Position numbers and translations under genes: made by a program
Notes under the pieces: model-generated
What the model was told of the DNA's origin: nothing
What the model saw: the letters and a program-made list of their open reading frames with translations, nothing else
Databases searched by the model: none
Assembly (NCBI RefSeq): GCF_016899935.1
Contig: NZ_JACJJK010000003.1
Location: forward strand, 186,001-250,000
Length of the DNA stretch: 64,000 nucleotides
Direction: 5' to 3'
From: Olsenella uli
GTDB lineage: Bacteria > Actinomycetota > Coriobacteriia > Coriobacteriales > Atopobiaceae
Shown here: in pieces, positions 23,212-25,652 of the stretch
Position numbering within the stretch: the stretch's first letter is position 1
How the letters are laid out: every line of letters begins with the position of its first letter

Positions 23212-24144
23212 ATGGAAAAGACCGATAGGGACGTCGAGAAGGACGTCGACAAGACCGACGAGAAGGGCGCCCGAAAGGGCGGCGAGAAGCACCTCGTGAA
23301 AGGCGCGCCCGCGCCCGGGCGGGGCCTGCCGACCCCGGCGTGGGTCGCCGTCACGGTGGCCGCGCTCGTGGTGGGCGTGCTCGCCGGCCACTTCCTGCTC
23401 GGCGGGCTGGGCACGATCTCGCTGGCGGGCCGCACGACCCTCTCGGCGGGCGAGCTCGACAGCACCATCGCCACCTACACCGTGGACGGCCGCACCGTGC
23501 CCGTGACGGCGCGCGAGGTCCTCGAGGAGTCGGCCGGCGGCGAGATCGCCGCCAACGAGGACGGCACCTACGACGTGCCCTCCGCGAGCGCCGTGCTCAC
23601 CTACGCCCAGAACCAGATCATCCTCGACGACGCCGAGTCCCGCGGCATCACGGCCTCCGACGACGAGATCGACGAGTTCGTGACGAGCTCCTTTGGCACC
23701 GACCTCGCGACGCTCGCCTCGAGCTGGGGGATCAGCGAGGACGCGGCGCGCGAGACGGTCGCCAACGCCGTCGTGATGCGCAAGCTCCAGGACGAGGTCG
23801 CCGGCACGACGCTCCCCGAGGCGCCCGCGCAGCCCGCCGAGCCCGCCGAGGGCGAGGAGGACACGCCCACGGCCGAGTACGCCCAGTACGTGATCGGCCT
23901 GCTCGGCGACGAGTGGGACGCCGAGGCCGACGACTGGGCCCGCACGGACGGCACCTACTACGCCACGCTCTCGGGCTACGACATCTCCGACGAGGGCGCC
24001 ACGTACGCGGCCGCCAGCGCCGCCTACAGCGTCGCGGCGAGCGCGTACCAGGAGGCCTACAACCAGGTTTCCGCCGAGCTCTCCGCCTACACGGACGGTC
24101 TGCTCTCCAACGCGACCATCCAGCTCGGCTCGCTCGCGGAGTAG
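23212..24144 (+). CDS. Membrane-anchored SurA/PrsA-like N-domain protein
   Basis: A 310-residue protein with a charged cytoplasmic start (about 40 residues with repeated D/E/K and GGEK), one membrane helix (about residues 43-66) and an outside portion. The outside part has a SurA_N-like helical region (VLTYAQNQIILDDAESRGITASDDEIDEFV), typical of PrsA/SurA/PpiD folding factors. No PPIase domain follows; instead there is a Pro/Glu linker and an Ala/Tyr-rich helical tail. It may be a chaperone without isomerase activity. ATG 23212 is set by GGGGGACGGAC, which is a weak site. Confidence 0.6.
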   Translation: MEKTDRDVEKDVDKTDEKGARKGGEKHLVKGAPAPGRGLPTPAWVAVTVAALVVGVLAGHFLLGGLGTISLAGRTTLSAGELDSTIATYTVDGRTVPVTAREVLEESAGGEIAANEDGTYDVPSASAVLTYAQNQIILDDAESRGITASDDEIDEFVTSSFGTDLATLASSWGISEDAARETVANAVVMRKLQDEVAGTTLPEAPAQPAEPAEGEEDTPTAEYAQYVIGLLGDEWDAEADDWARTDGTYYATLSGYDISDEGATYAAASAAYSVAASAYQEAYNQVSAELSAYTDGLLSNATIQLGSLAE

Positions 24145-24147
24145 GGC

Positions 24148-25338
24148 GTGCGCGTCGCGATCAGCGCATGTCTGCTCGGGGCCCCCGTCCGCTACGACGG
24201 GGGCTCCAAGCCGTGCGCGGAGGTGCGCGAGCTTGCGAGGAAGGTCGACGTCGTGCGCGTGTGCCCGGAGACGGCCTCGGGACTGCCCGTGCCGCGCCCG
24301 CCGGCCGAGCAGCGGGACGGGCGCGTCCTTCTCGCCGACGGGCGGGACGTGACCGAGGACTTTGCCCGGGGGGCGGAGGTCTCGCTCTCCGCCGTCCGCC
24401 GCCGGCCGGTCCCGCTGGCGGTGCTCAAGGCGAAGAGCCCCTCCTGCGGCGTCGGCCTCGTCTACGATGGGACCTATACCGGAAGGCTCGTTTCGGGCCA
24501 GGGCGTCTTCGCCGAGCGGCTCGAGAAGGAGGGGGTCTGCGTGGTCACCGAAGAAACCGTGCGCGCGTGCAAGCCGAGCGTGGAGCATCCCGTCGCCATC
24601 GTCCTGGGGAGCGGCCTCGGGCATCTGGGGAGCCTCGTGCGCCCGGTGCGCCGGATCGACTACCGCGACATCGAGGGCTTCCCGCTCTCCGCGCGCCCCG
24701 TGGCCGGCCACAGCTTCGAGGCCACGGTCGGCACGATCGACGACGTCCCCGTGGTGGTCTACCCCGGGCGCATCCACCTCTACCAGGGCTACTCCGCCGC
24801 CGAGGTGACCGCGCTCGTGCGCCACGCGCACCACCTGGGCTGCCGCGACATCATCTTCGCCTGCGCCACGGGCGCGGTGCCGGGCAACGCCGAAGTGGGC
24901 CTGGGCATCCTGACCGACCAGATCAACCTCACCGGGCGCAACCCGCTCGCCGAGTGGGAGGGCCTGCGCGACGTGGAGAGCCCGTTCGTGGACATGAACG
25001 AGGCCTTCTCGCCCTACCTGCGCACGCTCGCGCGCGGCGTGGCGGACGACCTGGGGATCCACGTGGACGAGGGAGTCTACGCAGGCGTGCTCGGCCCGTG
25101 CTTCGAGACGCCCGCCGAGGTGGCGGCCCTGCGCGCGCTCGGCGTCTCCTACGTGGGCATGTCCACGGTGAACGAGGTCATCATGGCCAAGGCGCTCGGG
25201 ATGCACGTGCTCGGGCTCACGCTCGCGGCCAACGAGTCCGGCGCGCCGGCGGTCTCTCACGAGACCGTGCTCGCGGCGGCGGGGGAGCGGGCCGAGGACT
25301 TCGAGCGTCTCGTCCGGGGCGTCCTGCGGCTGCTGTAG
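24148..25338 (+). CDS. Fusion of DUF523 and purine nucleoside phosphorylase
   Basis: Two unrelated domains in one 396-residue chain. Residues 1-138 are DUF523: start VAISACLLGAPVRYDGG, CPE, and KAKSPSCGVG with its Cys. Residues about 149-396 are a trimeric type II purine nucleoside phosphorylase: IVLGSGLG, GHSFEATVG, YPGRIHLYQGY, GPCFETPAE and the base-recognition part MSTVNE. The second domain splits inosine/guanosine with phosphate. DUF523 has unknown function; the fusion hints at purine or sulfur-purine salvage. It starts at GTG 24148, four bases after the preceding stop. There is no stop or frameshift at the join, so the fusion is real in this sequence. Confidence 0.88.
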   Translation: MRVAISACLLGAPVRYDGGSKPCAEVRELARKVDVVRVCPETASGLPVPRPPAEQRDGRVLLADGRDVTEDFARGAEVSLSAVRRRPVPLAVLKAKSPSCGVGLVYDGTYTGRLVSGQGVFAERLEKEGVCVVTEETVRACKPSVEHPVAIVLGSGLGHLGSLVRPVRRIDYRDIEGFPLSARPVAGHSFEATVGTIDDVPVVVYPGRIHLYQGYSAAEVTALVRHAHHLGCRDIIFACATGAVPGNAEVGLGILTDQINLTGRNPLAEWEGLRDVESPFVDMNEAFSPYLRTLARGVADDLGIHVDEGVYAGVLGPCFETPAEVAALRALGVSYVGMSTVNEVIMAKALGMHVLGLTLAANESGAPAVSHETVLAAAGERAEDFERLVRGVLRLL

Positions 25339-25360: not shown

Positions 25361-25652
25361 GGGTCGTCCCGGAATCCGGGGCCTTGTTCCGGTGGCGTCT
25401 TGGAATCGGGGCCCTTGTCCCGCGCGCGTCCCGGAATCCGGGAGGTTGCGCGCCGTGGGCGGCCAAACATGGTCCAGCCCCGGCGATTCTCGGACCGTTT
25501 TGCGCCAATCCCTGCGATTCCTAGAGTCGCGCGCGACAAGTTCAACGATTCCTAGAAGCGCTCGTGACAACCCCAGCGATTCTTAGAAGCGCTCGTGACA
25601 ACCCCCGTGTTTCCTAGAAGCACCCGCGACAACCCCGGCGATTCCCGGAAGC
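25361..25652. repeat. Mirrored array, exact 31-base period (copy 2)
   Basis: Three forward units (TTGT-like cores at 25384, 25415, 25446) are followed by six inverted units (25473, 25504, 25535, 25566, 25597, 25628). All steps are 31 bases, except the centre, which is 27 as in copy 1. The first inverted unit is decayed. The last four inverted units are clean: GACAA, then CGATTC, then CTAGAAGC. It lies between the fusion gene and the tRNA promoter, with a GAGAAAAAC word just to the right. Confidence 0.9.

Follow-up and report, generated by a model that had tools for sequence, protein, structure and literature searches.

A fusion of 2-thiouracil desulfurase and purine nucleoside phosphorylase in Olsenella uli and its relatives

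Described enzymes and the fused gene

The 2-thiouracil desulfurase TudS is an iron-sulfur enzyme, in which a [4Fe-4S] cluster with three cysteine ligands strips the sulfur from 4-thiouracil compounds to yield the corresponding uracil compounds. Its reported substrates are 4-thiouracil, 4-thiouridine, and 4-thio-UMP, the last being preferred (PMC10611767). Cys10, Cys43, Cys104, Glu45, Ser101, and Ser103 are described as the catalytic residues, and Arg17, Tyr18, Pro102, and Tyr110 hold the uracil, sugar, and phosphate of 4-thio-UMP in the reported docking models (PMC10611767). In a second architecture, RudS, TudS is joined to DUF1722, and the protein removes s4U from tRNA (PMC11417400). Since single-domain proteins and DUF1722 fusions are reported to make up 58.9% and 40.1% of the family sequences, respectively (PMC11417400), about 1% is left for all other architectures, presumably including the one described here, in which TudS is followed by a purine nucleoside phosphorylase (PNP) of the trimeric type, represented by PunA, XapA, and human PNP.

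We analyzed a stretch of 64,000 nucleotides from Olsenella uli (hereafter the window; the genes and domains located below lie on its plus strand). A single stop-free open reading frame at positions 24148–25338 encodes a protein of 396 amino acids, and its GTG start lies three bases past the stop codon of the preceding gene. Just upstream, at 23212–24144, is a gene for a 310-amino-acid protein without any Pfam match (working label SurA310). The first domain of the fusion protein, residues 3–136 (24154–24555), matched Pfam PF04463.17 (2-thiour_desulf; E 1.1e-40) over profile positions 1–140 of 141, with a score of 139.4 bits against the curated cut-off of 34.7. The second, residues 148–394 (24589–25329), matched PF01048.26 (PNP_UDP_1; E 2.1e-35) over the full profile, positions 1–233 of 233. 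The first-pass annotation had described one clean frame that joins a complete DUF523 to a complete PNP domain, and both the reading frame and the full-length Pfam matches bear this out. Its further statement that DUF523 has no known function was wrong, as this domain is TudS, with solved structures and biochemistry (PMC10611767), and the present Pfam name of PF04463, formerly DUF523, is 2-thiouracil desulfurase. TudS structures are available as 6z92 and four more PDB entries, with 6z92_A being the closest chain (E 1.6e-29). The PNP half scored 229 bits against the cut-off of 218 for the NCBIfam purine-nucleoside phosphorylase model NF006054, and cleared that of TIGR01697 only by a hair's breadth (197.4 versus 197.1). 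PF04463 and PF01048 were the only Pfam domains found in the protein, which thus has no C-terminal DUF1722 as in RudS.

Between the two domains, residues 137–147 (24556–24588) form a junction, in which the end of TudS runs into a C-x-P-S-x-E-H-P-V-A linker. An AlphaFold2 monomer model, built from 21 relatives, has a mean pLDDT of 87.8 and a pTM of 0.88, with residues 141–150 around the junction at a pLDDT of about 96. Structure comparison of the full-chain model by VIA-align essentially covers the PNP part, which has the trimeric-PNP fold; residues 145–396 superimposed on the PNP structure 4lna with Z 31.6 and rmsd 2.3 over 245 aligned residues, and Z ranged from 28.7 to 31.6 for residues 144–396 against the PNPs among the 50 matches listed. 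The TudS half was matched by sequence, to 6z92_A. Compared with stand-alone TudS (6z92, TudS_A; TudS_P), the window protein has the same domain near full length and the same key residue equivalents, but the 6z92 chain of 166 residues consists of TudS only, whereas here a PNP follows. RudS is similar in that TudS is combined with a second domain that could set the substrate or partner (PMC11417400), but that domain is DUF1722 instead of a PNP, and we found no reason to propose a tRNA substrate here. The likeness to trimeric PNPs extends to the fold, the active-site set, and the NF006054 score, whereas the fusion carries TudS in place of their own N-terminal extension.

Right after the fusion gene, at 25365–25652, we also observed two repeat runs with a 31-bp period. 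In the second run, the core GATTCCTAGAA comes after GACAACCCC, and a search of the genome allowing up to 3 mismatches yielded 13 occurrences of this GACAACCCC/GATTCCTAGAA pattern, versus none for the reversed control.

Both enzymes and the chemistry of TudS are known, and the TudS-PNP architecture is new as far as our literature search shows. The search found the fusion in no title or abstract opening, with subscription papers and supplements mostly outside its range. This architecture may be listed in domain databases. The word "phosphorylase" is absent from the papers on TudS (PMC10611767) and RudS (PMC11417400), and "TudS" and "purine nucleoside phosphorylase" both occur as terms in one paper, PMC13296781.

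Distribution, neighbourhood, and history of the fusion

We then examined the relatives of the window's genome, mainly in its own family (f1) and a second one (f3), which are probably Atopobiaceae and Coriobacteriaceae, respectively. Of 140 genomes from the window's family, 109 have a TudS match, as do 250 of 396 drawn from the class. TudS or PNP loci were fetched from 77 f1 and 35 f3 genomes, and TudS and PNP are joined in a single frame free of stops in 59 f1 genomes, including that of the window, and in 12 f3 genomes; since most loci were chosen for being best matches or odd cases, these counts are not frequencies. In one of the 12 (L095), the fused frame is cut by the contig end. In a sixtieth f1 genome (G044), the first half of TudS is out of frame and the second half in frame, and the PNP part of another genome (G025) is split over two frames. 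The first-pass annotation had named a frameshift joining two genes that are separate in related genomes as the finding that would refute the fusion. This check was run, and the claim withstood it, with the joined form in 59 of the 77 f1 genomes and the stand-alone PNPs looking derived. A frameshift or assembly artefact was also rejected, as 71 genomes show an uninterrupted junction. In 11 same-genus copies (55 pairs), the median pairwise dN/dS was 0.231 for TudS and 0.122 for PNP, and both halves are thus under purifying selection. The fusion of two known enzymes is genuine and clade-wide.

Outside these cases, the two halves occur separately. Fifty-eight f3 genomes have TudS, and 18 of them also match the PNP of the fusion, 12 fused and six apart. 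The fusion-type PNP was not found at E 0.001 in the other 40, so that TudS evidently persists without this PNP in most of the f3 sample. In 29 TudS loci from other families of the class (L034–L062), the flanks of up to 1.5 kb gave no match to it either. Among the best 80 matches in named contigs, representing 79 loci, 18 were fused, 60 had TudS but no PNP in the flanking sequence (up to 6 kb), and one, from Collinsella, had only the PNP. Sixteen of these 18 fused loci are titled Olsenella, Atopobium, Parafannyhessea, Collinsella, Atopobiaceae, or Coriobacteriaceae, and the remaining two "bacterium OL-1" and "uncultured actinobacterium". Among the matches listed, Olsenella, Atopobium, Parafannyhessea, and Atopobiaceae were closer, and Collinsella and Coriobacteriaceae more distant. 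None of 244 matching plasmid records spanned more than 80% of the query.

In a comparison of loci L093–L165, interrupted in places by locus ends or absent genes, the fusion is preceded in both families by genes for DegV, a 3-hydroxyisobutyrate-dehydrogenase-like protein, a HEAT-like protein, and the 310-amino-acid protein, often together with a NYN gene in f1. In the same neighbourhood, PNP stands alone in seven f3 and five f1 cases, plus four diverged f1 cases, and TudS stands alone in six f1 places. The 310-amino-acid gene usually adjoins the fusion as well as its split forms, lying upstream of the latter save for three (downstream in L114 and L120, and not found in L145). Two more stand-alone TudS (L112 and L144) have none of the neighbour genes of the fusion.

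All 12 non-diverged stand-alone PNPs retain the fusion linker C-x-P-[ST]-x-E-H-P-x-A, which is missing from the three canonical PNPs compared, and in several of them, such as L107 and L111, an apparent TudS end precedes it. In the PNP tree, stand-alone PNPs are nested among the fused ones in both families, with the deepest fork left open, and the fewest changes amount to six, of which three to four are forced by well-supported branches. From the retained linker and this nesting, the PNP-alone forms probably arose by loss of TudS. In a TudS tree of 143 columns, the six TudS-alone proteins from the same neighbourhood fall outside the fused clade, with fair support, namely 94/82 for that clade and 96/89 for the fused proteins plus five of the six. 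The TudS-alone forms may thus reflect either PNP loss or the state before the fusion, and the tree is neutral or against a simple loss. In a TudS-alone protein (L142), a stretch resembled a PNP remnant on inspection, but we rejected this candidate, as its profile score of roughly −0.3 bits was exceeded by several of 2000 shuffled sequences. In the six f3 genomes with PNP alone and TudS, the latter lies elsewhere in the genome and belongs to another TudS lineage; all 22 stand-alone f3 TudS among those listed have Lys at the place of Arg17. In three f3 genomes (G387, G195, and G284), about 5 kb separates a stand-alone TudS (L229, L235, and L232, respectively) from a match to ThiI, which makes s4U.

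The occurrence of each half alone in several lineages would also fit a fusion through which a single gene simply supplies two housekeeping enzymes that are unrelated, with no functional coupling. We regard this as unlikely, because the joined frame has been kept in two families, with a conserved and confidently modelled junction.

Active sites of the two halves and their predicted substrates

The TudS half was examined in an alignment of 37 stand-alone TudS with 72 fused rows, which come from 70 genomes, two of which are represented by duplicate entries. The window has the equivalents of all the catalytic residues, namely the three cysteines, the glutamate, and the two serines, as well as those contacting the substrate. 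Cys8 (24169–24171) aligns with the cluster ligand Cys10 of TudS_A (PMC10611767), Cys39-Pro-Glu41 (24262–24270) supplies the equivalents of the ligand Cys43 and the catalytic Glu45, and Ser97-Pro-Ser99-Cys100 (24436–24447) corresponds to Ser101, Pro102, Ser103, and Cys104. The equivalents of the three cysteines, Glu45, Ser101, Pro102, and Arg17 are invariant in all 72 fused rows, and the departures are Ser103 to Ala in four, Tyr18 to Phe in five, and Tyr110 to Phe in one. As the contact residues are frequent in the stand-alone TudS, too, they mark the family rather than the fusion. In a stand-alone TudS (L248, from G294), Trp replaces the first cluster cysteine.

The conserved ligands, catalytic residues, and contact residues would make a thio-pyrimidine a likelier substrate than a purine. 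The first-pass annotation had taken the fusion as a strong hint that DUF523 acts on purine nucleosides or their products; a role in nucleoside or nucleotide metabolism stands, but action on purines is unsupported, given the residues of thiouracil enzymes and the separate occurrence of the halves. The same evidence bears on a sequential thiopurine salvage, in which one half would desulfurate 6-thioguanosine, 6-thioinosine, or the thio-base and the other would split the nucleoside, resulting in detoxification. Two complete active-site sets in one chain and the 6-oxopurine residues retained in the PNP half speak for it. Nevertheless, we consider it improbable, because the pocket residues of the TudS half are those of enzymes with a known preference for 4-thio-UMP, and because 40 of the 58 TudS-bearing f3 genomes gave no match to this PNP and others have the PNP without an adjoining TudS.

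For the PNP half, residues were counted in 37 aligned fused rows with the numbering of human PNP, in which the roles of most of these active-site residues have been described (PMC10226123). The equivalents of Arg84, His86, Tyr88, and Phe159 are present in all 37 rows, those of Glu201, Ser220, and His257 in 36 each, Asn243 in 34, and Met219 in 32, while the Ser33 position is occupied by Ser (20) or Thr (17), and the Thr242 position by Ala (19), Thr (16), or Ser (2). At the Asn115 position, the fused rows have Cys (32), Gly (3), or Ala (2). Cys is also found there in all 12 stand-alone relatives, Asn in all six canonical PNPs of the class, and Asn (two) or Ser (one, Thermus) in three PDB references. 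The window protein itself has the equivalents of Ser33, His64, Arg84, His86, Tyr88, Phe159, Glu201, Met219, Ser220, Asn243, and His257, with Ala at the Thr242 position and Cys239 (24862–24864) at that of Asn115. In human PNP, Asn115 is described as lying within van der Waals distance of inhibitors but outside the hydrogen-bonding set (PMC10226123). A further difference from canonical trimeric PNPs, which mostly have GHAG-R, is the GH-x-[F/Y]-E motif in most fused rows. Judged by these alignments, the 6-oxopurine machinery of the trimeric PNPs is preserved in the fusion with one consistent change, at Asn115. As this residue is changed in every fused row and TIGR01697 was barely passed, the specificity of the PNP half may have shifted. 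The diverged PNP lineage (L118–L121, from G073, G062, G064, and G076) has lost the equivalent of His64, carries Gly where canonical PNPs have Asn115, and possibly represents a changed or dead enzyme.

Such a shift could have retargeted the PNP half to pyrimidine nucleosides, so that 4-thiouridine would be converted into uridine and then uracil in two steps. The window's genome has two PF01048 matches, the fusion and an MTA/SAH nucleosidase, so that the fusion carries the only purine nucleoside phosphorylase found there, and neither a uridine phosphorylase among these matches nor any match to the pyrimidine-nucleoside phosphorylase model TIGR02644 was detected. This, together with the change at Asn115 in all the fused rows and the frequent Ala at Thr242, would suit the retargeting, and a trimeric PNP that accepts cytidine, SmPNP2, is a reported precedent (PMC6128611). 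However, the Glu201 and Asn243 equivalents are retained in nearly all rows, the main change of SmPNP2, Ala118Leu, is not seen at the corresponding window position 240 (Ala 33, Ser 3, and Gly 1 in 37 rows), and the Thr242Ala variant of human PNP is cited as leaving the inosine kinetics similar (PMC6128611), which makes the retargeting very improbable.

A parallel role in nucleoside salvage and its meaning

It is reasonably probable that the fusion protein is a bifunctional enzyme of nucleoside and nucleotide salvage, with its halves working in parallel on different substrates. The fusion is intact, with its catalytic residues, architecture, and neighbourhood conserved, both halves are under purifying selection, and relatives have either half alone; the activity of both halves, their substrates, the trimer, and the parallel action are what we infer from these observations. 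The TudS half would hold a [4Fe-4S] cluster through Cys8, Cys39, and Cys100. The free iron of this cluster would bind the sulfur atom of the substrate (4-thiouridine, 4-thio-UMP, or 4-thiouracil), which would then be replaced by a water molecule that Glu41, Ser97, and Ser99 activate, to yield the uracil compound and sulfide. The PNP half, probably as a trimer, would phosphorolyze inosine- or guanosine-type nucleosides into the base and ribose-1-phosphate. Both activities would serve the recycling of RNA-derived or imported nucleosides, and would not be sequential. Neither half requires the other, since each occurs alone in relatives and 40 of the 58 TudS-bearing f3 genomes gave no match to such a PNP.

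The fusion is the only TudS match in the window's genome, as judged by the profile search. The genome also encodes a full ThiI above the TIGR00342 cut-off, and can thus probably make s4U. This provides no specific support, because ThiI is nearly universal in the class (381 of 396 genomes exceed the cut-off of PF02568). Upp is likewise present above its cut-off, and the entry of 4-thiouracil into RNA in Staphylococcus aureus is reported to require Upp (PMC12210855).

Some observations weigh against parallel salvage. Fusions kept over two families often join sequential or co-regulated steps, and parallel action offers no shared substrate to explain the joining here. In addition, one copy (L099, from G236) stays fused despite having lost the equivalents of Glu201, Asn243, and His257, with its TudS catalytic set intact. 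A shared substrate flow, in which a single polypeptide both desulfurates and cleaves a thionucleoside (a thiopurine or, given a retargeted PNP, 4-thiouridine), appears rather unlikely, and sequential action on thionucleosides is unsupported. If such a flow existed, gut Coriobacteriales would have an enzyme dedicated to thionucleoside detoxification.

The title of a Clostridioides difficile paper, cited in PMC12210855 and PMC7618682, ties TudS to gut competition, and this iron-sulfur enzyme has recently been linked to nucleotide quality control. Its conserved fusion to the only PNP found in the genome connects, in a testable manner, the clean-up of thio-nucleotides with the salvage of nucleosides in Olsenella and Collinsella relatives, and the relatives with either half alone offer a natural series for asking what the fusion does.
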